Positions 9,921 to 23,469 of a stretch of 49,301 bases of DNA are shown piece after piece (position 1 is the first letter of the stretch; every line of letters begins with the position of its first letter). The DNA lies in contig JAGGVT010000066.1 of assembly GCA_021157815.1 (NCBI GenBank), forward strand, positions 1 through 49,301, given 5' to 3'. This stretch comes from a bacterium. Lineage in GTDB: Bacteria; JAJVIF01; JAGGVT01. A program made the translations under genes and the position numbers. The notes under the pieces were generated by a model, which made no database searches, was not told where the DNA came from, and saw only the letters and a list, made by a program, of their open reading frames with translations.

Positions 9921-10074
9921 ATTCCCGCGAAAGGGACTGTTGAAAAACCTAATTATGTAGGGGCAGGTCTCTGTGCCTGCCTTTAGGTTTGCTGTAAATA
10001 CAGGGCAGCCACAAATGGCTGCCCCTACGGTTCGGGATAAAACAAGCTTTTTCAACAAGCCCGAAAGCGGAAAT
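9921..10074. mobile_element. Miniature element nested in an extragenic hairpin, copy 1
   Basis: A 128-bp insert (9934-10061) has ends GGACTGTTGAAAAA and TTTTTCAACAAGCC. It splits a hairpin repeat of the form ATTCCCGC-loop-GCGGGAAT: the left arm is 9921-9928 and the right arm 10067-10074, where it reads GCGGAAAT. CGAAAG occurs on both sides (9928-9933 and 10062-10067) as a 6-bp duplication. An uninterrupted hairpin lies nearby at 10173-10192. Copy 2, at 23314-23469, is in the opposite orientation. Confidence 0.8.
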
Positions 10075-10172
10075 CCAATTATTTCTTGAACCATACGCTA
10101 AATCATTTTGTACTCGTACATCCTCTTAAATAGAGTTGTTTCATAGTCAATGCTGGTTCAGAAGAAAAATGG

Positions 10173-10192
10173 ATTCCCGCTTTCGCGGGAAT
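10173..10192. repeat. Uninterrupted extragenic palindrome (REP-like)
   Basis: ATTCCCGC, loop TTTC, GCGGGAAT: a perfect 8-bp stem. It is the unoccupied form of the site that holds miniature elements at 9934, 23016 and 23328. Its outer flank (CGTCATTCCCGCG and a CAGGTCGAATAA block further out, read on the minus strand) is shared with the copy near 22975-23010, so the repeat unit is longer than the stem. Confidence 0.8.
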
Positions 10193-10258
10193 GACGTGTT
10201 ATTCTACCTGACGTATTATTCGACCTGTATAACCGTTCATACTAAAAGAGCTGTTTTG

Positions 10259-11656
10259 TCAGTTACCGCTGTGAACCTCAATATTCTCTCGAATGAAAAA
10301 CCAGCCAAATCCGCTTATAGTGCTTATAAACAGCGTCATAAACAGCAGCTTTAGAAAATTTGGTTCATCCTTTTTACTTGGCAAATACGCGCTATCAAGC
10401 ACGGCAAAAACCTTTTCCCCTTTATCCATGTAGCTTTCGCCAATCTCCTTAAGGTCTCTGAATTGATTAAGCATGGCTAATTTCGAAACCTTCTGTCTTT
10501 GAAGGTAAATAAACTCATTTTCAATTTCAGGCAGTTTATCCAGAAGCTCTTGAGTTTCTTTTTTGTGTTTCTCAAGCCATACAGCTTTTGCGGATTCAAC
10601 AGTCAGAGTTGCCAGAAGGTCCGACGCATAACCTTTTTCATTATCAGCGAGATGATGCATAAATAATTTCTTCGATATTTCAACCCTGTCCGACCAGTAT
10701 TTAAGTTGCGGAGTGTCCTCCTTATAAGTCATTTCGGCCTGCGCAAGATTAATGGAATCCCAGAAAAGGCGAGACATGATAACTGCGAGCATTGGATCAG
10801 ACATGACATCCAGGATTGAATATTGCATTTCATCTTTTTGAGAAACGCCGTAACTATCCATCACTTCAATTCGTTTTTGCGAATCGAACAACAACTCGCG
10901 GCTTGCAATCGCGCGGCTTTTTGCCTGTACCAGTTTTGATTCAGTTGTGTATAGATGTCCCATTATGCTGGACAGGTGATTAGCCGGTGCGATAATTCCA
11001 GATGATGATTTCAACTTCGCCTGTTTGGTTTCGATATCCAACAGTTCAATCTCAAGCTTTTTGATATTTTCACTTACCGCTTCGATTGGCTCCAGGTTGT
11101 TTACAAGACTGAGTTGATTGATAAAATCCGTGAAAAGGTCCGTATATCTGTTTACAATTGCCTTGGCAATCGCCGGTTCCACAAAGGTATATTCGATATT
11201 GTAATGCCCTGCCTCTCGGTCTAAAGAAACATCCAGATTCTTTGTAAACGCAAGCACGATTTCCTCTGATGACATACTGCCGTTATCGAAATGGTGACGG
11301 CATCCGACATCATCCATGATTTGAAAGACAGTGGTACGAGCATAAAAAAACGGTGTGAAATCGAAAGTTGATTTGTCCATCTGGTCATACAGGAAATTCC
11401 AGAACGGGTCACGCAGGCTTAGCGTTTGAGATTTCTCTCCTTCAGGAACGGGATATCTGCTCGGTAACGCGCCTTTTTTAAATGCAGTCCACGGTTTTCG
11501 TGTGTTTTCCATTATCACCAGCGACTGCGATTTATATCCCGGTGGGCTGATAAAATAAAACACGACGCTGAAAACAATCGCGCAACACCATATCACTACA
11601 AATTTCCACTTGTAGCGAATGAAGATTTCAATTATGCGCCGAATCTCATATCCCAT
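10259..11656 (-). CDS. Wzz-like polysaccharide chain-length determinant protein
   Basis: A 465-residue protein with the architecture of Wzz/PCP proteins: a cytoplasmic N-terminus, a first membrane helix (about 16-36), a large periplasmic part with extended coiled-coil helices (about 180-415) and a second membrane helix near the C-terminus (about 432-455, LLFMTLFISTISGFGWFFI). PCP proteins control the length of O-antigen, exopolysaccharide or capsule chains made by Wzx/Wzy systems. There is no C-terminal tyrosine kinase domain. It starts 12 bases after the acpS stop, so it is probably co-transcribed with acpS. No Wzx/Wzy genes are nearby; the only other glycan genes in the window are the GT4 gene at 8470 and the lone neuB. 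Confidence 0.75.
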   Translation of the reverse strand: MGYEIRRIIEIFIRYKWKFVVIWCCAIVFSVVFYFISPPGYKSQSLVIMENTRKPWTAFKKGALPSRYPVPEGEKSQTLSLRDPFWNFLYDQMDKSTFDFTPFFYARTTVFQIMDDVGCRHHFDNGSMSSEEIVLAFTKNLDVSLDREAGHYNIEYTFVEPAIAKAIVNRYTDLFTDFINQLSLVNNLEPIEAVSENIKKLEIELLDIETKQAKLKSSSGIIAPANHLSSIMGHLYTTESKLVQAKSRAIASRELLFDSQKRIEVMDSYGVSQKDEMQYSILDVMSDPMLAVIMSRLFWDSINLAQAEMTYKEDTPQLKYWSDRVEISKKLFMHHLADNEKGYASDLLATLTVESAKAVWLEKHKKETQELLDKLPEIENEFIYLQRQKVSKLAMLNQFRDLKEIGESYMDKGEKVFAVLDSAYLPSKKDEPNFLKLLFMTLFISTISGFGWFFIRENIEVHSGN

Positions 11657-11668
11657 ATGCGATATGTT

Positions 11669-12052
11669 TTAGCCCTCGATTATCACAACCGCCGCCGCTG
11701 ATTGTTTTGTGTGAGTAAGAGATAAAAAGATGCGTTTCATCCCCGCTTTTTTAAACTCAATCTCCAGTGTCTCAGACATTTTGATAAATGGCTTTCCGCT
11801 TTCTTCAACCAGAACTTCGACATCAATATGGCCGCACCCGGCAGGCCATGGCCCACCAAGAGATTTGAAAACAGCTTCTTTTGCCGCGAATCGAGCCGCG
11901 TAATGCTGGGCTGGCTTTCTTTTAGACGAGCAATACTCGCGCTCCGATTGCGTGAAATTCTTTTCACAAAACCTTCCCTTGTAGGTTTTCAGCGAACGTT
12001 CAATTCGTTTAATTTCGACTATGTCCAATCCGATTGAGATTATCATAAGCAT
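11669..12052 (-). CDS. acpS: Holo-[acyl-carrier-protein] synthase
   Basis: A 127-residue AcpS that transfers 4'-phosphopantetheine from CoA to acyl carrier protein, giving the active carrier for fatty-acid synthesis. The magnesium-binding motif GLDIVEIKRIE (Asp at about 10) and the second signature FAAKEAVFKSL (about 55-65) are intact, as is the C-terminal LSLTHTKQSAAAVV strand. The length is normal. ATG at 12052 or 12046 could be the start; neither has a strong binding site. It serves the fab genes at 36-42 kb, although acpP itself is not in the window. Confidence 0.93.
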   Translation of the reverse strand: MLMIISIGLDIVEIKRIERSLKTYKGRFCEKNFTQSEREYCSSKRKPAQHYAARFAAKEAVFKSLGGPWPAGCGHIDVEVLVEESGKPFIKMSETLEIEFKKAGMKRIFLSLTHTKQSAAAVVIIEG

Positions 12053-12119
12053 GATGATAATTCAGAACGGGCATGTTAGACAATATAAATATAAATATTT
12101 GTGGGATTTTCAGGAAAGC

Positions 12120-13109
12120 CTAAGCGCAGAGTTCTTTCACTTTATCAAGGAGTTCTTTTTTTTTCAACGGTTTAACAAGGAAATGACGTATACCTGCCTT
12201 GTAAGCCATGAAAATCACTTCATTTGTTGGATCCTCAAGAGTTAGAATAAAAGGAATGTTCATAGCCTTGGTGCTTTTACGTATTTTTTTTGAAACCATA
12301 AGGCTGTCCCAATCATTTGGTTTTACCTCCATGATTACAATATCAACTTCCTCCCTGAGAATACTCCTAATCAAATCCTTTAGCGAATTGAAATCCGCCA
12401 CTCCAATATTTTCCGATTCCAGGATTTGGCAAATAATCTCCCTGTCAGATTTATGTGTATCGTAAACCACAACAATTGTCCTGTCACTCCAGTCTATTTC
12501 AGGCTCAAGCGAACACACGAAAAGATTCTCACCTGATATCCTCGGGATGATTAAATGAAAAGATATTTCAGGATAATCATCAGGCTTGTACAAATAGGTT
12601 GTAATTAGATAATCATCCACAGGTAAATTCTCGAGTGATTTCACATCCGGTTTGAATTCCGCTTGAGACGTTTCTTTGTGTTCCAAAACATATTCACGTG
12701 AGAAAACCATTCCAAGAGTCTGGGTTACACCCCCAGCCAGATAGCCTACAAACTCCTCGAAATTTTCCTCATCCTCAGATGAAAGTTTGCCTTGCTCAAT
12801 ATTGGATTTAATCTCATCCTCAGGAGAAATCATCATAATTCCTGTTAAAACGTGCACCGCTGTAGGGTCAGCTATAAAAAACACTTCTCCCTTTTCAATG
12901 CCATTAATAGCCAGTTTTGATATTAAACTGATACCGCCGACAATCTCAGCAATGTCAGGAACGGTTGCCATTCTTGGTTTGCTGTATTCAAGCACCACCT
13001 CGGCGTTAAAAGCTTCTTTTATGGCTGCTTCCATGTTATTAAGCTGTTTCTTGAAAAAAGCATTTACCTTTTCCCGCGATTCTTCCGGTATTTTCTTTAG
13101 TCTTACCAT
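12120..13109 (-). CDS. CheX/CheC-like domain fused to a degenerate receiver domain
   Basis: A 329-residue two-domain protein. Residues 1-200 resemble the CheC/CheX/FliY phosphatase fold (a GEVFFIADPTAVHVLTGIM strand-helix unit, and a helix EEFVGYLAGGVTQTL at about 118-132), but where the CheX helix has ExxN this one has ExxG. Residues 210-329 form a receiver domain: VVVYD (Asp217), DIVIME (256-261), FILT (Thr290) and FLVKP (Lys313). The phosphoacceptor position is Glu261 instead of Asp, which would prevent normal phosphorylation and may mimic the active state. I infer a role in chemotaxis or type IV pilus signalling; the divergent neighbour is a pilin-like gene. There is no kinase nearby. Confidence 0.7.
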   Translation of the reverse strand: MVRLKKIPEESREKVNAFFKKQLNNMEAAIKEAFNAEVVLEYSKPRMATVPDIAEIVGGISLISKLAINGIEKGEVFFIADPTAVHVLTGIMMISPEDEIKSNIEQGKLSSEDEENFEEFVGYLAGGVTQTLGMVFSREYVLEHKETSQAEFKPDVKSLENLPVDDYLITTYLYKPDDYPEISFHLIIPRISGENLFVCSLEPEIDWSDRTIVVVYDTHKSDREIICQILESENIGVADFNSLKDLIRSILREEVDIVIMEVKPNDWDSLMVSKKIRKSTKAMNIPFILTLEDPTNEVIFMAYKAGIRHFLVKPLKKKELLDKVKELCA

Positions 13110-13406
13110 AACTCTCCTGAAGTAATATCCTTTTTCATGGTTGATGATAAAACAATCAGATACAAAGAAATCAGATAAACTTCCTCAGGAAGTGTTTTCG
13201 AAAATGCTTTCTGTCACGGCGATTTCATGTTCATATTTTGCCTTTTTGTCAAATTTGGAATCCATGCGTTTTCAAAGATAATATGGTATAATTCAAGTGG
13301 ATAAAGAGAAATAAGGTTACCTTCCAGGGGTTCTTCAAAGGTTAATTATTCTGAGGATTAACTTGTAGCAGGAACAAATATATTTTAAGATTAACTTAAC
13401 AAATAC

Positions 13407-13435
13407 TTGACTATTATTTTAGGAACTCGTATAAT
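13407..13435 (+). promoter_or_regulatory. Strong sigma-70 promoter for the pilin-like gene
   Basis: TTGACT (13407-13412), a 17-base spacer and a perfect TATAAT (13430-13435). Transcription would start about 80 bases before the GTG at 13522. This is the best sigma-70 promoter seen in the window. The rest of the 412-base divergent region (13110-13521) is AT-rich and shows no other feature I can support. Confidence 0.75.
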
Positions 13436-13521
13436 TTGTCCATAACTTTGCAAGTAACAAAGCTTGCTATAGGAATTAACCTTTAAAAACATTTTCCTAC
13501 GGGAAAGGAGGTGAATATTAA

Positions 13522-14046
13522 GTGATTAGAAACGAACGAGGTTTTACCTTGCTTGAGCTTCTGGTGGTAGCTTCAATTATAGCAATTATCGCCGCTATCG
13601 CAATCCCGCAGCTCCTGAATGCCAGGAGATCTGCCTGGGAAAACCGATGCAAACTTACCCTCAGGGCTCTTGGCTCATCGCAGCTGGCATATATGGACGG
13701 TAACCTTAAGAAGGATTATGGTAGCTGGAGTGCAATGACAGATGCTGACTACATCCAGGAAGGCTATAATCGAACGAACATGATCGACAACTATTCGATT
13801 ATCTGCTTCCAGATTGCAATTTCAAAAGAGATTGGAAACACTGGATACACAGCCAGTGACTCAACTTTCACCATCGTTGCTGTACCACGAAGCGATAAAA
13901 ACCGACTGCGAACATTCGCAATCGGAGATGACCAGACACCACGTGTATATGTTGGTGATGAAGCAACATGGGACGCTGCAATAGCAGTTCCAGAAGAGCT
14001 GGCATTTTCATTAAGCGACATCACGCAGTGGGAACCGCTAAGGTAA
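13522..14046 (+). CDS. Type IV pilin-like / pseudopilin protein
   Basis: A 174-residue protein with a class III signal: MIRNERG cleaved before F (residue 8), then FTLLELLVVASIIAIIAAIA, with Glu5 of the mature protein conserved, followed by a globular domain. The leader is recognised by prepilin peptidase PilD, and the protein would enter a type IV pilus or type II secretion pseudopilus. A GTG start is supported by AAAGGAGG at 13504-13511, ten bases upstream. A strong promoter upstream and a terminator downstream (14075-14100) make it a single-gene unit. The pilus machinery is elsewhere. The C-terminal domain lacks an obvious disulfide pair, as in many geopilin- or GspG-like proteins. Confidence 0.9.
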   Translation: MIRNERGFTLLELLVVASIIAIIAAIAIPQLLNARRSAWENRCKLTLRALGSSQLAYMDGNLKKDYGSWSAMTDADYIQEGYNRTNMIDNYSIICFQIAISKEIGNTGYTASDSTFTIVAVPRSDKNRLRTFAIGDDQTPRVYVGDEATWDAAIAVPEELAFSLSDITQWEPLR

Positions 14047-14074
14047 TTTGCAAGGCTTACGAAGCAAGCAAGGA

Positions 14075-14100
14075 AGCCACGCCGAAAGGCGTGGCTTTTT
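14075..14100 (+). terminator. Rho-independent terminator of the pilin-like gene
   Basis: AGCCACGCC (14075-14083), loop GAAA, GGCGTGGCT (14088-14096) and a T run ending at 14100. It has a perfect 9-bp stem with a stable tetraloop. Confidence 0.92.
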
Positions 14101-14122
14101 ATTTTGCCATTTATCAGCTAGG

Positions 14123-14818
14123 TTACATCCTCGACAAACGCAGTTCACCAAATGCCAGGTCGTTCAAGCGTTCATGGCTCAGTATCCTAATCGACCTGGC
14201 CTTTGTGAATGCGATTATGTCATCACTTACCATGCGCCTCATTATTCTTGATAACGTTTCAGGAATTGTTCCCAGAAGATTTGCCAGCTGGCTTTTACTG
14301 ATTTCAAGATGCACTATATCGGAATTGTCATTTTGTTCACTCTGAAGGAGAAGATATGTTGCCAGCCTTGCCGGTACATCTTTCAAAGATAGTTCCTCGA
14401 CTTTGGAAACCAATTCTCTCAATCGTCCTGAAAGATCAGCCAGCATTTTCATAGAAAGTGATGAATCCATTTTGACAAGTTCGATAAATCTATCGCGTGG
14501 AAAGAAAAGCAAAATTGAATCCCTTAAAGCATCCGCGTAAGCTGGATAATTTCCATTCGAAAAAACAGCAACCTCACCGAAAGGCTCACCTTCTCCAATC
14601 ACATGAATTATCTGTTCCTTTCCATCTGGTGAAATCCTGAATATTCGCACCTGTCCTGAAATAACAATATAGAATCCAAGCCCCTCATCATCATTGGTAA
14701 ATATCATCTGTTTTTTCCGGCATTTTTTCTCAATTGCGATTTTGGCAAGTTCCTCGTGTTGTTGGTCGTTTAGACCGCTAAATAAAGCAGTTTCAGCTAT
14801 GTGTTTTTTCTTGTCCAT
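14123..14818 (-). CDS. Crp/Fnr-family transcription regulator, HcpR-like
   Basis: A 231-residue regulator: cyclic-nucleotide-binding-like beta-roll (about 10-125, with GEGEPFGEVAVF near 85-96), dimer helix (about 125-150) and a winged helix-turn-helix (about 165-220, LEISKSQLANLLGTIPETLSRIMRRM). There is no N-terminal cysteine cluster as in FNR, so it does not carry that iron-sulphur centre. It is transcribed divergently from hcp, and a perfect palindrome at 14848-14861 lies between them. This arrangement is typical of HcpR, which regulates hybrid cluster protein genes in response to nitric oxide or nitrosative stress. The assignment to HcpR rests on context; the family itself is sure. Confidence 0.88.
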   Translation of the reverse strand: MDKKKHIAETALFSGLNDQQHEELAKIAIEKKCRKKQMIFTNDDEGLGFYIVISGQVRIFRISPDGKEQIIHVIGEGEPFGEVAVFSNGNYPAYADALRDSILLFFPRDRFIELVKMDSSLSMKMLADLSGRLRELVSKVEELSLKDVPARLATYLLLQSEQNDNSDIVHLEISKSQLANLLGTIPETLSRIMRRMVSDDIIAFTKARSIRILSHERLNDLAFGELRLSRM

Positions 14819-14847
14819 ATTTTTACCAAAGAAAAAATAGCACTAGT

Positions 14848-14861
14848 TTGACTTAAGTCAA
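14848..14861. promoter_or_regulatory. Perfect palindrome, likely HcpR operator
   Basis: TTGACTTAAGTCAA has the TTGAC-N4-GTCAA form expected for a Crp/Fnr-type dimer. Its centre is about 42 bases upstream of the start expected from TAAATA at 14885-14890, which is class II activation geometry for hcp. It is only 29 bases before the regulator's own start, so it may autoregulate as well. Confidence 0.65.
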
Positions 14862-14910
14862 GGACAGACTTTCATGAGCCTGATTAAATAATTATTAGTT
14901 GGTGGGAGAC

Positions 14911-14938
14911 CTGAATAAAACTATTTAATATTATTCAG
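14911..14938. promoter_or_regulatory. Inverted repeat in the hcp leader
   Basis: CTGAATAA (14911-14918) and TTATTCAG (14931-14938) are exact inverted repeats 12 bases apart, 25 bases before the hcp ATG. It could be a second operator or an RNA hairpin in the leader. Its function is unknown. Confidence 0.3.
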
Positions 14939-14963
14939 TCAAAACTGAAAAGGAAAAAAAGAT

Positions 14964-16595
14964 ATGTTTTGTTACCAATGCGAACAAGCGGCAAAAGGAA
15001 CCGGCTGTGATGTCAGCGGAGTATGCGGCAAAAAGCCGGATGTTGCATCTCTTCAAGATTTACTGACTTATTTGGTTCAAGGACTTTCGCAAGTCGCGGT
15101 TGAGGGATGGAAAGCCGGAGTTGTTGACGATAAATTAAACGCCTTTACAACTCAAGCCCTTTTCGCAACTCTGACCAATGTTAATTTCGATCCGGAACGC
15201 TTCGTTGAGTATATCAACCAGTGCGTTGATTTAAGAGAATCGTTGAAGGATAAGATTAAATCAGCGGGAGGAAATGCGGATTTCCCGGATGGCCCTGCAA
15301 CTTTCAAGCCTTCGGAAACACTCGATGAGATGATTAAGCAGGGAGAGGCTCTTTATTTATTCACTCAATCACCTGATGACGACACCGATGTTTTCTCTCT
15401 GAAAAGCCTTCTTATTTTCGGCCTTAGAGGCGTTTCCGCGTATGCTGATCACGCTGAGATTCTCGGTAAAACCGATGATGCAGTCTATGCCTTTATTCAT
15501 GAAGCAATGGCGGCATCAGCGCGTAAAGACCTCACTCTGGATGATGCTCTTGGACTTGTTTTTAAATGCGGTGAAGTAAACTTTAGAGCAATGGAACTTC
15601 TCGATTCCGGCAATACTGGAACATACGGGCATCCAGTTCCTACCAGCGTACCCCTTGGCGCAAAAGCGGGAAAGGCGATTCTGATTTCAGGACATGATCT
15701 TGCTGACATGGAAGCGCTTTTAAAACAAACTGAAGGGAAAGGAATTAATATTTACACACATGGTGAAATGCTTCCTCTGCATGGTTATCCCGAGCTGAAG
15801 AAGTATCCGCATTTTTACGGCCATTACGGTACTGCCTGGCATAACCAGAAAAAGGAATTCGCTGAATTCCCCGGCTCGATTCTCATGACCACTAACTGCA
15901 TTCAAAAACCGTCTGAATCGTATTTTCAAAATATATTCACATCAGGATTAGTCGGATGGCCCGGAGTTAAACACATTAGTGATAGGGATTTCACACCTGT
16001 AATCGAAAAAGCGCTTGAAATGGAGGGCTTCACTCAAACAACTAACGGAAAATCCGTTATGGTAGGATTCGCCCGTAACGCTGTGCTTGGTATTGCGGAT
16101 CAAATCATCGAAGCAGTGAAAAACAAGGATATTCGCCACTTTTTCCTCGTTGGCGGATGCGATGGCGCTCGCAAGGAAAGAAGTTACTATACCGAGTTCG
16201 TTCAGAAAGTACCGTCCGATTGTATCGTTCTTACACTCGCATGCGGAAAGTTCAGATTCTTCGATATGGATTTGGGAGATATCGGAGGCATTCCGCGATT
16301 GCTGGATATCGGCCAGTGCAACGATGCCTATTCCGCGGTGCAGATAGCTTTGGCGCTTGCAAATGCATTTGACTGCGGAATTAATGACCTTCCGCTATCG
16401 ATGATTATCTCGTGGTATGAGCAGAAAGCGGTTTGCATTTTACTTACGCTTTTGTATCTCGGTGTTGAGGATATCCGCCTTGGACCAACACTGCCAGCGT
16501 TTATCTCACCGAATATATTGAACGTACTGGTTGAGAAATTCGCGCTTAAACCGAATGGCACTGTTGATGAGGATTTAAAGGCAATTCTTGGATAA
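14964..16595 (+). CDS. hcp: Hybrid cluster protein (hydroxylamine reductase)
   Basis: A 543-residue Hcp of the anaerobe type. The N-terminal cluster ligands are Cys3, Cys6, Cys15 and Cys21 (C-x2-C-x8-C-x5-C). Hybrid Fe-S-O cluster ligands are recognisable in order: GHD (His), THGEM (Glu), TTNC (Cys), GGCDGA (the persulphide Cys), LACGK (Cys), IGQCND (Cys) and WYEQKA (Glu and Lys). The protein reduces hydroxylamine in vitro and acts as a nitric oxide reductase in E. coli. It is cytoplasmic. AAAAGGA lies upstream of the ATG. No Hcr-type reductase gene is adjacent, which is common for this class. The divergent Crp/Fnr regulator and the operator suggest induction by nitrosative stress. Confidence 0.95.
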   Translation: MFCYQCEQAAKGTGCDVSGVCGKKPDVASLQDLLTYLVQGLSQVAVEGWKAGVVDDKLNAFTTQALFATLTNVNFDPERFVEYINQCVDLRESLKDKIKSAGGNADFPDGPATFKPSETLDEMIKQGEALYLFTQSPDDDTDVFSLKSLLIFGLRGVSAYADHAEILGKTDDAVYAFIHEAMAASARKDLTLDDALGLVFKCGEVNFRAMELLDSGNTGTYGHPVPTSVPLGAKAGKAILISGHDLADMEALLKQTEGKGINIYTHGEMLPLHGYPELKKYPHFYGHYGTAWHNQKKEFAEFPGSILMTTNCIQKPSESYFQNIFTSGLVGWPGVKHISDRDFTPVIEKALEMEGFTQTTNGKSVMVGFARNAVLGIADQIIEAVKNKDIRHFFLVGGCDGARKERSYYTEFVQKVPSDCIVLTLACGKFRFFDMDLGDIGGIPRLLDIGQCNDAYSAVQIALALANAFDCGINDLPLSMIISWYEQKAVCILLTLLYLGVEDIRLGPTLPAFISPNILNVLVEKFALKPNGTVDEDLKAILG

Positions 16596-16659
16596 CATCT
16601 TTACGATATTGGATACCGGTCCCACTCACTCTCCTTGGAAATGATGTTAGAGGGACCAA

Positions 16660-16701
16660 GCGGGGCTTATAAAATCCGTTGTATGGATTGATAAGCCCCG
16701 C
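16660..16701. terminator. Long hairpin between convergent hcp and MBL-fold genes
   Basis: GCGGGGCTTAT (16660-16670) pairs exactly with ATAAGCCCCGC (16691-16701). An inner AATCC/GGATT pair extends the stem. There is no long T run on either side, so its efficiency as a terminator is uncertain, but its position between convergent genes fits that role. Confidence 0.6.
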
Positions 16702-16708
16702 GCTGCAT

Positions 16709-17362
16709 TTACAGTATTTCTATAATTCTACCCGCGCCGCCATCCATGAAAGCGTCAGGATATAGTGATTTCAATTCGGATTTGTGTTTCGTGCAGTGTG
16801 TAGCGCAGATTAAATCGAGGTTTTTGACTTTCTCAAAATCGTTGAAACCGTGAAGGCCTCCCACAATTGCATAAATCTTTCCCCATTGCGATGCGTCATC
16901 CAGAATAGTACTGACTAATGGGTGTGAGCATCCAACGACAACAACGATTCCTTTCTCTGTTTCCACCGCGAGCGATATTTCCGTAAGGTCATACCCGATG
17001 CCTTTAAGTTCACTTGTTGAATAGATGCCGTCGTGTAGTTTGATCGGCTTGCTAATTCTGATTACATCAGGGGAATTGACTGTCGTTTGGAACTGAGATG
17101 GCACATATACTCTGACAGGCCTGATTTTAAGAAACTCCCCCAGCCCGCCCTGGTGGTCCCAGTGGTCATGAGAGATGAATATTTCATCGATTGATTCCGG
17201 GTCGATATCGAGTTTACTCATGTTTGCCAGGAGGATTGAGCCTTTCGCGCCGGTATCAAACAGGATTCGTTTTTCGTGCGCATCGACAATGCATGAGAAG
17301 CCGAAATCGTCTTGAAGATTTTTGTCGTAAGCAGTGTTGTCGTAGATGATTGTAATTTTCAT
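16709..17362 (-). CDS. Metallo-beta-lactamase-fold hydrolase
   Basis: A 217-residue MBL-fold protein. The metal-binding motif SHDHWDHQGG (HxHxDH, about 64-73) is intact. The other MBL ligands are suggested by GCSH (about 144-147) and the C-terminal ATHCT region. The early FDTGA strand (about 35-39) is also typical. The sequence resembles the MBL subfamily that includes the methanopterin-related ribofuranosylaminobenzene phosphate synthase-like proteins, which in bacteria mostly have no known function. There is no signal peptide, so it is cytoplasmic. It converges on hcp and is probably independent of it. A short palindromic element lies immediately upstream and may carry or have replaced its promoter. 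Confidence 0.82.
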   Translation of the reverse strand: MKITIIYDNTAYDKNLQDDFGFSCIVDAHEKRILFDTGAKGSILLANMSKLDIDPESIDEIFISHDHWDHQGGLGEFLKIRPVRVYVPSQFQTTVNSPDVIRISKPIKLHDGIYSTSELKGIGYDLTEISLAVETEKGIVVVVGCSHPLVSTILDDASQWGKIYAIVGGLHGFNDFEKVKNLDLICATHCTKHKSELKSLYPDAFMDGGAGRIIEIL

Positions 17363-17368
17363 TTTTTT

Positions 17369-17503
17369 ATTGGGTCAGACACCTTTTATTTTGTTTGAAT
17401 TCCTCATGTGAAGAAAAGATAAAAAATATAGTGCTTGTTTAGTCTTTTACAATATTATACCACATGAGGAATACCTAGATGTGCCATTGGTGTCTAACCC
17501 AAT
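17369..17503. mobile_element. MITE-like double inverted repeat, 135 bp
   Basis: The outer ends are ATTGGGTCAGACACC (17369-17383) and GGTGTCTAACCCAAT (17489-17503), with one mismatch. Inner ends ATTCCTCATGTG (17399-17410) and CACATGAGGAAT (17461-17472) are exact. It has no coding capacity. It begins seven bases upstream of the MBL-fold gene start, so the transcript or promoter of that gene runs through it. No target duplication can be assigned. Confidence 0.65.
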
Positions 17504-17541
17504 TACATTTCCTTCGGATATGATCAGGATGAAGTACAAAA

Positions 17542-18810
17542 CTACGTTTTGTATTTCAATAAAATCGAATACTGTTCATCGTTGGGGAATTTTGCGCCGA
17601 CGCTTATGTCGTTATCGCCGACTGTGATATAACCTGAGAATGTGCAGCCTCTGAGTGATTCCTTTTCAAGGTGATGATAGTTTTCTCCCTCGAATAGCAC
17701 AATGTCCTCGGCGTATGGCACATCTATTTTGAAATGGTACTCCCTGCCGGATTTTAGAATTCCATGCATTGGTGAGTAAAGGTATGCCTTCCGATATCTG
17801 AAATCACCGAGAGTTTCGGGAAAGTGGGATGAATCATCGGCAGATGAGGATGCGTTGATTATGTAATCAATCGCCCAGTCGTATGTTTCCTGCCTGCCTT
17901 TCGCTGCAAATACCCTTAGTGTGTATTTGCCCGGTTTGGGGAATAAAACATGGATGTAGTAGATGCCATCTCTCTGTTGAGAAAATGTTAATGCCTTATC
18001 CAACTCGATATCATTTTTCAACAGTTGTGCAATGATGCTGATATCATCCGGGGCGCCTAATTCCACTGTTAAATTATTACCTGTTGATATTACACATTCA
18101 GGATGGCTTTTGATTTTCAGGTTGTATCTGAAGAATGACGGTTTAAGATACGCGAGCAACAGAAATTTGCTCTTTGAAATTGGATTTTTCACAAGCTGCC
18201 ATTTGGGATTTTCAGGAAAATGGGTGAAGATTAATTCCTGTGGTTCAGTTAGAAAATAATGCTCCTCGAATCGGCGGACATATTCTCCATTATCGCCTAT
18301 ATAACCCGCTCCCCATGTGCAGTCGAGAAGACAGAATACGCCATCAATTTTAACAGCGTTCCATGAGTGATTCGACTCGTCAAAATCAGCGCCGGGAATG
18401 TAGCTGTATCCCTTCGCGAATCCCGTTATGGTTTCCACTTCAAGTCCCGCTGACTTTGCCAGTTGCTCGAAAAGCACTGAATATCCCTGACAGACTGAAC
18501 TCCTGTGTTTAAGAACATCATCAGCCGACATTCTTTTTGCGGTTTGGCTTCGTAAAGCATCGACATCATAGGATATGTTGTGTGTAATCCACCGGAATAT
18601 TGCCCGAACTTTTTCAGTATCGTTTTTAGCTGGAGCGGTCAGGTACGATGCGAGTTCATCGATTGAACGGGTAACACTGCGAGGAGCGTTAATTGCGTGA
18701 TTGTCGATTTGGGAATACTTGTTTTGCGATGCCTGTGAATCTGAATTCTTTATGGCAAACAAACCAAGAACAATTAGAAACGTGATTATTTTTGTGACCC
18801 TATTCTTCAT
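17542..18810 (-). CDS. Exported transglutaminase-like (KY-type) protein
   Basis: A 422-residue protein with an N-terminal signal segment (ITFLIVLGLFAI), then a transglutaminase-like fold at about 45-190. The cysteine-protease triad is recognisable: SVCQGYS (Cys about 108), NHSWNAVKI (His about 147) and LLDCTWGAGY (Asp about 161). The LLDCTWGAGY-x-HYF layout resembles the kyphoscoliosis (KY) peptidase group. The C-terminal half (about 215-422) is beta-rich and probably forms Ig-like domains. It may be a periplasmic or surface peptidase or cross-linking enzyme; the substrate is unknown. Its start overlaps the end of the HEAT-repeat gene by 11 bases, so the two are coupled. Confidence 0.8.
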   Translation of the reverse strand: MKNRVTKIITFLIVLGLFAIKNSDSQASQNKYSQIDNHAINAPRSVTRSIDELASYLTAPAKNDTEKVRAIFRWITHNISYDVDALRSQTAKRMSADDVLKHRSSVCQGYSVLFEQLAKSAGLEVETITGFAKGYSYIPGADFDESNHSWNAVKIDGVFCLLDCTWGAGYIGDNGEYVRRFEEHYFLTEPQELIFTHFPENPKWQLVKNPISKSKFLLLAYLKPSFFRYNLKIKSHPECVISTGNNLTVELGAPDDISIIAQLLKNDIELDKALTFSQQRDGIYYIHVLFPKPGKYTLRVFAAKGRQETYDWAIDYIINASSSADDSSHFPETLGDFRYRKAYLYSPMHGILKSGREYHFKIDVPYAEDIVLFEGENYHHLEKESLRGCTFSGYITVGDNDISVGAKFPNDEQYSILLKYKT

Positions 18811-19984
18811 TACCTGTTTTAAGAATATCGAGAGCTTCTTCTATCCTGCCAATTACAAATGGATGCTTAGCCTGTTTTAGTAGATATTCCAGAAATTCAT
18901 CCGCATCAGGTTGATTCTTCGTTAGTCCTATCAGCGTTACAGCATAACCTCGAAGTTTCCACATGTCAGTGCCTGTGTTTTGGATTATCATATCATAAGC
19001 GGGGTAAAACGCCTGCTCCTTGTGCTTTAGGGCTGTTTCAGTATCAATTTCAGAAATATTCTCAAGGTAGCGTATTAATGCATCAAAACAGCATAGTTGC
19101 TTTTGAGAATTGGCTGGCAGATCATATATCGATATTATCAGTTCATCAAAGGAAACAGCACCCATTGCCTCTGATGACAAGCTTAAAATCGCTGCCTGAC
19201 GGACTGAACCAAGATCATCGTCAAACGCACCAATCAGTGAATTTACGGCGGAAGCATGGGGAATATATCCCAGAGCAATCGCGGTGTTTAGCCGAACAGG
19301 CTCCGTATCATCATTCAGGTATTCAGCAATTGTATCAATAAGCTCGGGATCGCGCATTTTACCCAGTGATGGGATTATTGAACGCAGAACCTTTTTATCC
19401 TTTTCAATTTCCAACGCTTTGAGCAATGCTTTTACAGCCTTCTTGTCCTCTCTCATTAACCCAAGTTTTAATGGGTCATCCTGAGTTGCTATGAAAGTGC
19501 AGTCGCCAATAAGGTAAGCGGCGTGACGGCGTGTCTCCGGGTCATCATCTTTCAGATAATCAATTAGATATTCGCTTGCCGGATATCCGATTCCTCGTAC
19601 GATATTATCGAGCGTTATACGTCGTCTAAAATCAGCTGATGAAAGATATTTTGCAAGAATTGGTGCAATCGCATCAGCTCCCAGTTCAATTAGAGCAGAA
19701 CGGCTGGGATAACGAACATCGATATGCTCCCCATCCCATTCGCTTGCGTTTATGAACAGTTCCAGGATTGCGTCATCTGATGGAACGCCATCGAATTCCA
19801 TTAGTATTTGCTCAGGAGTTCGAACACCCTCAGGCAGTTTGGGTTCGGCATCCTGTGCGAATAAAGTAGCCTGAAAAGTTGCCGTGATAAAACAAACCAA
19901 CATCAAGGCGTGTATAACATTAAGCCCTAATCTTATGCCACCCGTGCATCTTTTCTGAATATACTTGTACAATCTAATCATCAT
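18800..19984 (-). CDS. Exported HEAT-repeat protein
   Basis: A 394-residue protein with a signal peptide (hydrophobic segment about 23-42, cleavage near LFAQDA). From about residue 75 there are repeated helical pairs of the HEAT/PBS-lyase type: DDDPETRRHAAYLIGD, RSIIPSLGKMRDPELIDTIAEYL, TEPVRLNTAIALGYI and LGSVRQAAILSLSSEAMG. Such solenoids bind proteins; no catalytic motif is visible. Its end is translationally coupled to the transglutaminase-like gene. The start has two adjacent Met codons and a weak binding site. Confidence 0.78.
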   Translation of the reverse strand: MMIRLYKYIQKRCTGGIRLGLNVIHALMLVCFITATFQATLFAQDAEPKLPEGVRTPEQILMEFDGVPSDDAILELFINASEWDGEHIDVRYPSRSALIELGADAIAPILAKYLSSADFRRRITLDNIVRGIGYPASEYLIDYLKDDDPETRRHAAYLIGDCTFIATQDDPLKLGLMREDKKAVKALLKALEIEKDKKVLRSIIPSLGKMRDPELIDTIAEYLNDDTEPVRLNTAIALGYIPHASAVNSLIGAFDDDLGSVRQAAILSLSSEAMGAVSFDELIISIYDLPANSQKQLCCFDALIRYLENISEIDTETALKHKEQAFYPAYDMIIQNTGTDMWKLRGYAVTLIGLTKNQPDADEFLEYLLKQAKHPFVIGRIEEALDILKTGNEE

Positions 19985-20123
19985 TCCACACCGGGATTAC
20001 GAGTACTAATAATGCAAAATACTGCCTGTCGAATAAATCTGGCTGGTAGTCTTTTGTGCATAATATCCACCCTGAAATGAGTATGTTCGAATCTAATGAA
20101 GAACTAAGAGTTATTGTGGAATA

Positions 20124-20148
20124 GCAGTGGATTTAAACCCTCTGCTAA
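20124..20148. repeat. Short imperfect palindrome shared with 39486-39510 and 3912
   Basis: Read on the minus strand: AGCAGAGGGTTTAAATCCAC then TGCT. A near copy on the plus strand at 39486 reads AGCAGAGGAGGTAAACCCAC then TGC, and GCAGAGGGTTTA also forms the left end of the element at 3912. Both the 20124 and 39486 copies lie just after the 3' end of a minus-strand gene. Confidence 0.45.
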
Positions 20149-20172
20149 CTCAATATTATTTCGGGAAGTAAC

Positions 20173-21258
20173 CTATTCCACTTCCGTCGCCCAGAGTTTA
20201 ATCTCGCCGTCCTTGCAGCCTGAAACGAGCATCTTGCCATCAGGGCTGAACGCTACCGAAAGGACAGTCTGATTATGCCCCTCCAAAGTGCGAATTAACT
20301 CACCTGTTTCAGTTGACCACAATTTGATTATTTTATCACCGCCGGATGATGCAATCATGCTGCCATCCGGACTGAAAACCACACAGTGAACCCAGCTGTC
20401 GTGCGCATCGATTGACTGAATCAATTCACCGGTAATTACAGACCAAATTTTAATTGTTTTATCCTTGCTTGCGGATACAAGCAGCCTGCCATCGGGACTG
20501 AAATCGATTGAATAGACGCTTACGGGATGGTCCTCGAACGGACGGTAAATCCATTTCCCGCTTGATACCATCCATAGCACAATTTTGCCATCCTGGTCGG
20601 CTGATGCCATAATCCTGCCGTCCGGACTGAAAGCCACACAATTAACCTGATTCGCATGTCCTTCATAGGTGCGAATCAAATCACCATCCTTGACAGACCA
20701 TAGTTTGATTGTTTTGTCGTGATTTCCTGTCGCGATTGTTTTTCCATCCGGTGAGAAAGCGACCGATTCATTCCAGTCGCTGTCATCTGAAATAAAATTC
20801 ACAAGTTTATGGTCATTGACAGACCACAAATCAATCCTGTTTCCGCAAGTTGCCGATGCGATTGTTTTGCCATCCGGGCTGAAAGCAATCGAGCGGATAT
20901 CCCGGATATCGTAATTCTGGTTCTCAAGCAGGCAAATAGGCTGCCCTGTGGCTGATGACCATAATCTTAGAGTTTTATCTGAACCGCCGGACGCTATCAG
21001 TTTGCCATCCGGGCTGAAAGCGACTGAATTAACCGCATATTCATGCCCTTCGAGAGTTTGGATCAGGAGGTTAATTTCCGGCTCCGGTTCTTCCTCCTCT
21101 TCTTCAATCAGATCATCCACTGAACCCGGTTCAGGTATTAAAAATGTACCCTTTGATGGTTCCATGGATTCCTTTTCAGGTTCTTCAACTTCCGCAACAG
21201 CTGTTTGCACGCAGATAAGGATTAGTGCCAGTATGGTAAGAAACGCGAAGTTACGCAT
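20173..21258 (-). CDS. Exported WD40 beta-propeller protein
   Basis: A 361-residue protein with a signal peptide ([19 protein letters not shown]) and an acidic Pro/Glu linker (about 25-62), then seven WD40 repeats (about 68-361), each with SFSPDG- or AFSPDG-like turns and an LWS/IWS end. Seven blades make a complete propeller, so the domain looks intact. The high similarity between blades suggests recent internal duplication. Such propellers are protein-interaction platforms; no enzyme domain is present. GGAGG lies seven bases before the ATG. Together with the HEAT and transglutaminase-like genes downstream on the same strand it forms a set of exported interaction-domain proteins. Confidence 0.9.
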
Positions 21259-21537
21259 TTTTAACCTCCGGATATGTTCAATGGCTTTTAATATTTAATA
21301 AACTTTAAGACAGTTTACGCAGTTCCATATTTTAATGCAAGCCTGAATGTTCTCAGTTTTAAAGCAAAAAAGTCACGATAGTATTGACAATTTGCCTTTG
21401 TTTCATGTTCATCGCAAGATGTGAATGCTGAACTGATTTTATTATCGCCACAAATCAGTGGATATTTCATATAATGGAAATCATACAACTTAAAAATTTA
21501 AACCGCCTGCGTAATCACAGACGGTGTTTTTCTCAAA

Positions 21538-21611
21538 CAGGCCCGGAGGGACTCGAACCCCCAACCCTCAGTTCCGAAGACTGATGCTCTGTCCAGTTGA
21601 GCTACGGACCC
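21538..21611 (-). tRNA. tRNA-Arg (anticodon UCG)
   Basis: Read on the minus strand, 5' GGGUCCG pairs with CGGGCCU in the acceptor stem (G-U closing pair). The anticodon stem UCAGU/ACUGA encloses the loop CUUCGGA, giving anticodon UCG (codon CGA). A five-pair T stem encloses UUCGAGU. CCA is not encoded. The rest of the 21259-21786 gap is AT-rich and shows nothing else I can support. Confidence 0.93.
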
Positions 21612-21786
21612 ATGTGTTTTTCCTCACTATTTATCAGTGGAAAATTATACCGTAAGATTGCCAGGCATGCAGTGTTTATCTAAAATTTATACTGATTTGA
21701 ATCATTCAGGTTTACAAATCGTGTGATTAATGTACTATTTCAAAACATTGAATTATGATATCGCAATGAATCACAGGAGATAAAAT

Positions 21787-22848
21787 ATGAGTGAAGAAAA
21801 AAAGATAACCAATACCATAGGACTTCCTCCAGGCACGCTTGTTCATGTTGGCGAGGAACAAAGCAAGAAAATCAGTATCTCAATGATAGAATACGACAAT
21901 GAGAATCTAACCCGGAAAGAGATAACATCGATTGATGAGTGTTTTCCAATATCAGACACCGACACAGTCAAATGGATAAATATAACCGGTCTTCATGAGG
22001 TTGATGTAATTGAAAACGTCGGGAAATATCTTGACCTTCATGCCTTGATACTTGAGGATATTCTTAACACCGAACAACGGCCTAAAATCGAGGATTTTGA
22101 GAATCATGTTTTTATCACTCTCAAGATGCTGACATTCGACGAGGAGGATTACGAGGTCGATTTGGAACAGCTCAGTATTGTGCTTGGCAAAAACTACGTC
22201 ATCTCCTTCGAGGAGAAAGCTGTAAACGCTTTGGATATCCTTCTAAACAGGCTTAAAAAGAACGGCACCAGATCAAGATTTATGAACGCTGATTATCTCG
22301 CGTACTGCATGATTGATATCGTTGTGGATAACTATTTCGAGTTACTGGATAAAATCAACAACCGTATTGAATTCCTCGAAGATGAACTTATTGAGAATCC
22401 TACATCTGACATACTTCAGGATATTTATGAATTAAAGCGCGAGCTGATTTCATTGAAAAAGTCAATTTGGCCCCTTCAGGAAATAATAGGAGCTCTTCTC
22501 AGGTTAAACTCATCTCTGATTAATCCGTCAACTCTTTTCTACCTTGAGGATGTTTTTGACCACGTGCGCCAAATAATGGATACAGTGGATATTTACAGGG
22601 AGACTGTGTCCGGCATGCTTGACACCTACAGATCAAGCATTAGCAACAAATTAAATGACATCATGAAATTTTTAACCATCTTCGCAAGCATATTCATTCC
22701 ACTAACTTTCATCACTGGCGTTTATGGCATGAATTTTAATTTCATGCCGGAACTCAACTGGCATCTTGGGTATTACATCGCATGGTCAATCATGATTCTG
22801 ATTACAGTTGGAATGGTTGCATTTTTCAACAAGAAAAAATGGCTTTAG
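21787..22848 (+). CDS. corA: CorA-family magnesium/cobalt transporter
   Basis: A 353-residue CorA protein. The N-terminal two-thirds form the cytoplasmic alpha/beta and stalk-helix domain (LHALILEDILNTEQRPKIEDF near 88-108 is typical). Two transmembrane helices lie at the C-terminus (about 290-312 and 325-347), separated by the signature YGMNF (about 313-317) and the acidic loop MPELN. It assembles as a pentameric channel in the inner membrane for Mg2+ (and Co2+ or Ni2+). The basic C-terminal NKKKWL tail is usual. AGGAGA lies just before the ATG. It is a single gene with no leader element that I recognise. Confidence 0.96.
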   Translation: MSEEKKITNTIGLPPGTLVHVGEEQSKKISISMIEYDNENLTRKEITSIDECFPISDTDTVKWINITGLHEVDVIENVGKYLDLHALILEDILNTEQRPKIEDFENHVFITLKMLTFDEEDYEVDLEQLSIVLGKNYVISFEEKAVNALDILLNRLKKNGTRSRFMNADYLAYCMIDIVVDNYFELLDKINNRIEFLEDELIENPTSDILQDIYELKRELISLKKSIWPLQEIIGALLRLNSSLINPSTLFYLEDVFDHVRQIMDTVDIYRETVSGMLDTYRSSISNKLNDIMKFLTIFASIFIPLTFITGVYGMNFNFMPELNWHLGYYIAWSIMILITVGMVAFFNKKKWL

Positions 22849-22998
22849 TAATTTCATTCTTACTTTGCACTCACCTCTACTGAATTTCTATAACCCCTGT
22901 ATTTATGCGGTTTCCATTTGCTCTTTATGTGCTGCAAATTTTAAAATGTGTGCTTCAAATGCGATGTCAGGTCGAATAACCTGTCAGGTCAAGTATCC

Positions 22999-23236
22999 CG
23001 TCATTCCCGCGAAATAGTCTGTCGGAAAAAGGGGTAGGTTTTAATGTAACCCGCAATGCCTTTATAAAAAAACATGAATCAATTCTGCAACGTTCGCAGG
23101 CATTCCGGGGTTGCGCATATCTACCCACTTCCCCGGCATGCCTGATTCACCTTGCAGTTAATTGTTGATTTTGTTCGGGACGGCATGACCGGGTTACGGT
23201 GTTAACAGGCTTTTTCAACAGGCTCGAAATCGGAAA
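22999..23236. mobile_element. Miniature element nested in an extragenic hairpin, copy 3 (divergent)
   Basis: A 209-bp insert (23016-23224) has ends AGTCTGTCGGAAAAA and TTTTTCAACAGGCT. It lies in the same hairpin loop as copies 1 and 2, flanked by a 6-bp CGAAAT duplication (23010-23015 and 23225-23230). The interior differs from the other copies and has its own inverted pair (TAACCCGCAATGCC against GGCATGACCGGGTTA). Confidence 0.7.
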
Positions 23237-23313
23237 TCCATTTTTCTTCTTATTCGAATATAAAAAAATAAGATTGAAATACCTGTACGATAGTCTGATT
23301 AAAGGCAAAATTA

Positions 23314-23469
23314 GATTCCCGCTTTCGGGCTTGTTGAAAAAGCCTATTATATCCCATACCGTAGGGGCAACTCTCCGTGGTTGCCCTGTATTTATGCCAA
23401 TATTTAGGGTAGGCACAGAGACCTACCCCCTACATTCAGCCCTTTTTCAACAGCCTCTTTCGCGGGAAT
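23314..23469. mobile_element. Miniature element nested in an extragenic hairpin, copy 2
   Basis: A 129-bp insert (23328-23456), reverse orientation to copy 1 and clearly the same sequence along its whole length (shared blocks such as TAGGGGCA, CAGGGCA, CACAGAGACCT). It is flanked by CTTTCG (23322-23327 and 23457-23462) and enclosed by GATTCCCGC and GCGGGAAT arms. Confidence 0.8.

Follow-up and report, generated by a model that had tools for sequence, protein, structure and literature searches.

Several insertion sequences (ISs) insert into palindromic targets. IS1272, a member of the IS1182 family, targets hairpins and removes the stem-loop without leaving a target duplication (PMC5678879, PMC4923244); in the model of PMC5678879 a duplication of the loop is sketched only as one theoretical branch, and both papers cite an IS review for palindromic targets among IS1182 members. 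The ISs IS1397, ISKpn1, ISPsy8, ISRm22 and IS621, which come from the IS3, IS110, IS4, IS256 and IS5 families, insert at a fixed point of repetitive extragenic palindromes (REPs), in some cases at the symmetry axis and in some with a short direct repeat; for these ISs a single REP type and a single duplication length are described (PMC1525189). Bacterial miniature inverted-repeat transposable elements (MITEs) are short and non-coding, have IS-like terminal inverted repeats and reach high copy number (PMC3733652, PMC10969869). Here we describe MITEs that lie in the loops of hairpins in the 49,301-nucleotide contig JAGGVT010000066.1 (hereafter the window), which is the whole of contig C150 of a bacterial draft genome of 3.2 Mb (221 contigs, about 91% complete; assembly GCA_021157815.1).

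As read from the sequence, several MITE families with shared ends have entered many types of hairpin independently, at the hairpin axis and with loop-centred duplications of variable length, and their ends recur in a decayed IS1182-family element of this genome. We consider it likely that these MITEs owe their mobility to a transposase of the IS1182 family which selects its targets by hairpin structure and leaves the loop duplicated. Like the MITEs described before, they are short, non-coding and numerous. They resemble IS1272 and TnSha1 of Staphylococcus in the link to an IS1182-family transposase and in the use of unrelated hairpins (often terminators in the staphylococcal case) with no primary sequence consensus. 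However, IS1272 deletes the stem-loop, whereas here the moving elements are MITEs and in most copies the loop is duplicated and both halves of the stem are kept; for about ten copies with inverted flanks a replacement of the stem-loop is a possible origin. The REP-inserting ISs share with our MITEs the fixed insertion point, the occasional use of the symmetry axis and the short direct repeat, but the MITEs use many unrelated hairpins and their duplication length varies. MITEs with hairpin-loop targeting and loop-sized duplications were not found described in the open-access literature searched, although the review of IS1182 palindromic targets may note loop duplication.

MITE families in the window and the genome

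All three elements of the window split a ATTCCCGC-loop-GCGGGAAT hairpin and have a copy of the loop on either flank. When the terminal inverted repeat is used to set the element ends, four bases before CTG, the features are as follows.

9921..9928, left stem half ATTCCCGC of hairpin 1, a CGTC-type REP with 37 intact copies in the genome
9929..9932, left copy of the loop duplication GAAA of hairpin 1 (CGAAAG when neighbouring bases are included)
9933..10062, + strand, MITE of family A, 130 bp, ends GGGACTGTTGAAAAAC / GGGCTTGTTGAAAAAG
10063..10066, right copy of the loop duplication GAAA of hairpin 1
10067..10074, right stem half GCGGAAAT of hairpin 1, one mismatch to the consensus
10173..10192, empty hairpin ATTCCCGC-TTTC-GCGGGAAT, the inverse partner of hairpin 1 in a head-to-head REP pair
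23003..23010, left stem half of hairpin 2
23011..23014, left copy of the loop duplication GAAA of hairpin 2 (CGAAAT if extended)
23015..23225, + strand, MITE of family B, 211 bp, ends TAGTCTGTCGGAAAAA / GAGCCTGTTGAAAAAG
23226..23229, right copy of the loop duplication GAAA of hairpin 2
23230..23237, right stem half TCGGAAAT of hairpin 2, degraded
23315..23322, left stem half ATTCCCGC of hairpin 3
23323..23326, left copy of the loop duplication TTTC of hairpin 3
23327..23457, - strand (reverse orientation), MITE of family C, 131 bp, about 80% identical to family A
23458..23461, right copy of the loop duplication TTTC of hairpin 3
23462..23469, right stem half GCGGGAAT of hairpin 3

The initial annotation of the window had located the three inserts and the empty hairpin at 10173 correctly to within 1 bp. 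It had given the loop copies as 6 bp. A duplication indeed flanks each insert, but the strict duplication is the 4-nt loop (GAAA, GAAA and TTTC); the longer readings CGAAAG, CGAAAT and CTTTCG include one matching base on each side. The statement that copies 1 and 2 are the same element was mistaken, since it is copies 1 and 3 that are about 80% identical, while copy 2 belongs to another family and shares the ends only.

Searches of the whole genome with copies 1 and 2 gave 49 matches for the family A query and 57 for the family B query. The end GNCTGTTGAAAAAG occurs 146 times (72 forward and 74 reverse), compared with no occurrence of a reversed-pattern control. From the stretches around the search matches, 87 distinct elements with two good ends were obtained, thus the genome contains at least 87 copies. 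These fall into at least four MITE families with the common ends GGGGCTGTTGAAAAAG, namely A (130 bp), B (about 210 bp), C (131 bp, as in the window) and D (190 bp), with a few copies left unassigned; the 14 full-length copies of family A are at least 92% identical. The 87 copies are 86-395 bp long and non-coding and carry terminal inverted repeats, and 52 of them are flanked by a direct repeat of 4-6 bp. Six contigs (C7, C19, C76, C77, C103 and C127) start or stop at a MITE end or within about 130 bp of one; the assembly therefore probably breaks at near-identical copies.

The interior of families A and C consists of a head-to-head pair of GTAG-type palindromes, GTAGGGGC...GCCCCTAC (9957-10028 in the window, and in reverse within 23327-23457). 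One standalone copy of this pair lacks the MITE ends (L025:69-156), and a REP pair may thus have been captured between IS ends to give the interior of the two families. In four other places of the genome (L053, L074, L180 and L188) the motif AAATGTCGAAAGTCGAG directly abuts half hairpins in place of one flank and resembles the border of a further repeat.

Target hairpins and duplication length

The commonest target is the ATTCCCGC hairpin, whose intact 20-mer form occurs 37 times in the genome and whose reversed-pattern control does not occur. It agrees with the CGTC-1 type of REP, which has an 8-bp stem, a 4-nt loop, a (C)GTC tag, a CCA tail and a head-to-head paired arrangement (PMC3733652), as it reads (C)GTCATTCCCGC-GAAA-GCGGGAATCCA and is paired with inverse copies. 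The CGTC-1 REPs, which include dRS3 of Neisseria, thus have the same structure as our main target, but here the REP is the target and not the mobile element. Another target is GCAGGC-AGGAT-GCCCGC, a type with 33 intact copies in the genome. Further targets are CGCGGAC-AGCCTT-GTCCGCG, GCGCCGCA-GTAGCC-TGCGGCGC, GTAGGGTGGAT-TTAAA-ATCTACCCTAC, GCTGGT-TTCTA-ACCGGC, GATGC-TAAA-GCATG and, at L191, a variant of the ATTCCCGC hairpin with a compensated CCGGC/GCCGG stem. The target stems have no sequence in common. The preference for the loop of a REP-like repeat proposed in the initial annotation is therefore real as far as the REP hairpin is concerned but too narrow, because the elements have also entered no fewer than six further types of hairpin that differ in stem and loop.

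In 52 of the 87 copies, 7 or more of the 8 bases in the flanking half-stems are paired, as against 0.3% of random positions, and in 64 copies 6 or more are paired, as against 2.2%; these frequencies are far above chance. About 64 of the 87 copies thus lie in a recognisable hairpin of some type and 52 have a direct duplication, so that copies outside hairpins or without duplications, either of which as a majority would have spoken against targeting, are in the minority.

As a rule, the duplications left by a DDE transposase have a single fixed length. Here the direct repeat (4 bp or longer) of the 52 copies that have one measures 4 bp in 29, 5 bp in 20 and 6 bp in 3. When the re-joined targets were folded with DNA parameters, the predicted loop of 43 of the 52 either coincided with the duplication or lay within it, one pair in from each edge: 26 of the 4-bp repeats match a 4-nt loop, the 5-bp repeats correspond to a 3-nt loop plus the closing pair in 14 cases and to a 5-nt loop in 1, and the 6-bp repeats correspond to a 4-nt loop plus the closing pair in 2. 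Three further copies are symmetric, but the loop predicted for them extends one base further on either side, and the last six are shifted or have no fold. For the 4-bp duplications, the border of the repeat is precisely where the mean uninterrupted stem lengthens, from 0.17 bp to 6.1 bp. One and the same 130-bp element of family A has produced duplications of 4 bp (L016, L017), 5 bp (L026, L027) and 6 bp (L022, L028), its length remaining steady at 129-130 bp at the three kinds of site; at the ATTCCCGC hairpin the repeat reads 6 bp if the element is counted two bases shorter.

The initial annotation had offered as its other explanation the spread of an already nested unit, in which one MITE inserted in a REP and was then copied along with it. 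REPs are themselves dispersed, family A is mostly in the same orientation within the REP, and the genome has nine genes for Y1 (RAYT-like) transposases (on contigs C65, C216, C189, C151, C56, C83, C182, C85 and C84), all of which such a process would suit. The MITE copies, however, do not cluster by target. The sequence distance within the same hairpin and between hairpins was 0.043 and 0.042 for family A (permutation p 0.53) and 0.048 and 0.049 for family C (p 0.35), and nearest-neighbour copies of the two families usually lie in another hairpin type. In addition, elements of either orientation are found in the same hairpin, insertions of families A, B and C fall on one and the same nucleotide, and the targets include at least six unrelated hairpins. 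The flanks of the five Y1 genes that were read, out of nine, contained neither REP1 nor other target hairpins, apart from one weak partial match, which is in line with the description of CGTC repeats as having no dedicated transposase (PMC3733652). Because of the lack of clustering, the two orientations and the diversity of families, we rejected the nested unit as the main explanation; it is largely refuted and highly improbable as a general account, though a minority of copies could have spread in this way.

IS1182-family elements with related ends and targets

The Pfam models PF05598 and PF13751 find a few transposases in the genome. A search of the genome_contigs collection for the IS protein gave just two weak matches, to Neisseria (34% identity). 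The only IS found with matching ends is the C90 element (L078:1303-2297), in which internally deleted fragments of an IS1182-family transposase lie between the ends GGGGCTGTTGAAAAAGCCTATTAT and GGTATTTCAACAGCCCC. Its transposase matches IS1182 by NF033551 and by Pfam, and it stays below the full-length cut-off of NF033551 because the gene is internally deleted. The first 24 bases of this element, starting GGGGCTGTTGAAAAAGCCTATTAT, are identical to the end of most copies of family C; the family C copy of the window differs at two of the outer 24 bases, which other copies of the family share with C90. A second fragment, on contig C56, has a start that adjoins half of a GTAGCGCTG hairpin. In place of the full-length IS with these ends that the initial annotation had suggested looking for, the draft genome yielded only decayed copies, and no intact transposase copy with these ends was found in it. 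We therefore infer that the MITEs were mobilised in trans by a transposase of the C90 type.

Outside this genome, an IS on a Sinorhizobium plasmid annotated as IS1182 family has the ends GGGGCTGTTGAAGAA, and annotated IS1182 elements of other genomes have the common end GGGGCTGTTGAA. The elements could instead belong to another IS family, for example an IS5-like one, and resemble IS1182 at their ends by convergence. The genome does contain DUF772-type transposases of other groups (L076, L077), one of which, L077, lies close to MITE-like ends; but only the IS1182-type C90 copy has ends identical over 24 bases, and the end shared by annotated IS1182 elements elsewhere also argues for IS1182. We regard the assignment to another family as improbable.

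Hairpin insertion was also found for an intact IS of the IS1182 family in an unrelated complete genome, G065. This IS is 1762 bp long, encodes a transposase of 488 aa (367.9 bits with NF033551) and has six readable copies. All six lie inside hairpins, most of which have the T-runs of terminators. Five copies have direct repeats of 8 or 9 bp that match the loop with or without its closing pairs; the sixth agrees once one end is moved by one base. Single copies in two other genomes agree, one with a duplicated loop CAAG (G338) and one in a REP-like hairpin with CAA (G349). For the IS1182 copy of a class-mate (G001), the element ends were not found.

The proposal that all IS1182 elements target hairpins was rejected, as the copies in G347, G143, G138, G050, G032 and Sinorhizobium have no clear hairpin. 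Since such copies are found in several genomes, the loop-duplicating trait belongs to a part of the IS1182 family and is not family-wide. The Sinorhizobium meliloti plasmid copies (L202 and L203) lie at similar sequence, apparently inside IS256-type transposase genes, and have 5-bp repeats, TACGT and CGGGT, and no hairpin.

Target recognition and its meaning

In the mechanism that we propose, the inserts, as non-autonomous MITEs, would depend on an IS1182-family DDE transposase acting in trans, which would select extragenic hairpins by structure, either as an extruded cruciform or as a single-stranded stem-loop. On each strand the element ends would be joined where the loop meets the stem, or else one base pair further into the stem. 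The stagger would then be the loop, and gap filling would leave two direct copies of the loop (4, 5 or 6 bp), each next to one half of the stem.

The main rival is that the transposase recognises a dyad-symmetric B-form duplex and not an extruded hairpin. Transpososomes with two-fold symmetry often favour palindromic targets, several IS families prefer palindromic REP targets without proven extrusion, such as ISRm22 with its 6-bp repeats at the axis of palindromy (PMC1525189), and the present data consist of sequence only. Recognition of a duplex predicts a fixed stagger, however, while here one element gives duplications of 4, 5 and 6 bp and the G065 element gives 8 and 9 bp, each centred on the loop, and the stems have no common sequence. 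This alternative does not by itself explain the variable duplication length, and we consider it rather unlikely; we infer that the transposase recognises the hairpin in its folded form.

Several observations weigh against mobilisation by a hairpin-targeting, loop-duplicating IS1182-family transposase. No intact transposase copy with the MITE ends was found, only decayed ones, in a draft that is about 91% complete. When 115 relatives were searched with the MITE, the only matches were short ones to the palindromes of its interior, and no relative with an orthologous empty site was found. The Sinorhizobium, G032, G050 and G138 copies of IS1182-family elements have direct repeats but no convincing hairpin, and those of G347 and G143 likewise lack one. 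Finally, 35 of the 87 MITE copies have no clear duplication, and about ten of these have inverted rather than direct half-hairpins, which simple duplication of the loop does not explain.

Inverted half-hairpin flanks without a direct duplication are seen at L045, L122, L124, L125, L127, L128, L051 and L172, for example GTCATTCCCGCGAAA / TTTCGCGGGAATGAC. A short palindromic precursor of the inverted-flank copies was sought and not found; they possibly arose by recombination between the arms of a REP pair or by an IS1272-like replacement.

With loop-guided transposition as our preferred reading, we lean slightly towards a more general model, in which a group of IS1182-family transposases would read DNA shape, the loop would set the stagger of the cut, and the length of the duplication would be a property of the target. 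The loop duplication seen here and in G065 and the stem-loop replacement of IS1272 would then be two outcomes of one reaction. The many hairpin targets suggest that the enzyme apparently recognises the shape of the DNA rather than one sequence, and the dozens of natural insertions in which duplication length tracks the loop are direct sequence evidence for a structure-guided choice of target. Hairpin targeting could explain why mobile elements accumulate at REPs and terminator hairpins and leave genes intact, and it links the stem-loop replacement of the staphylococcal IS1272 to a wider trait of the IS1182 family.

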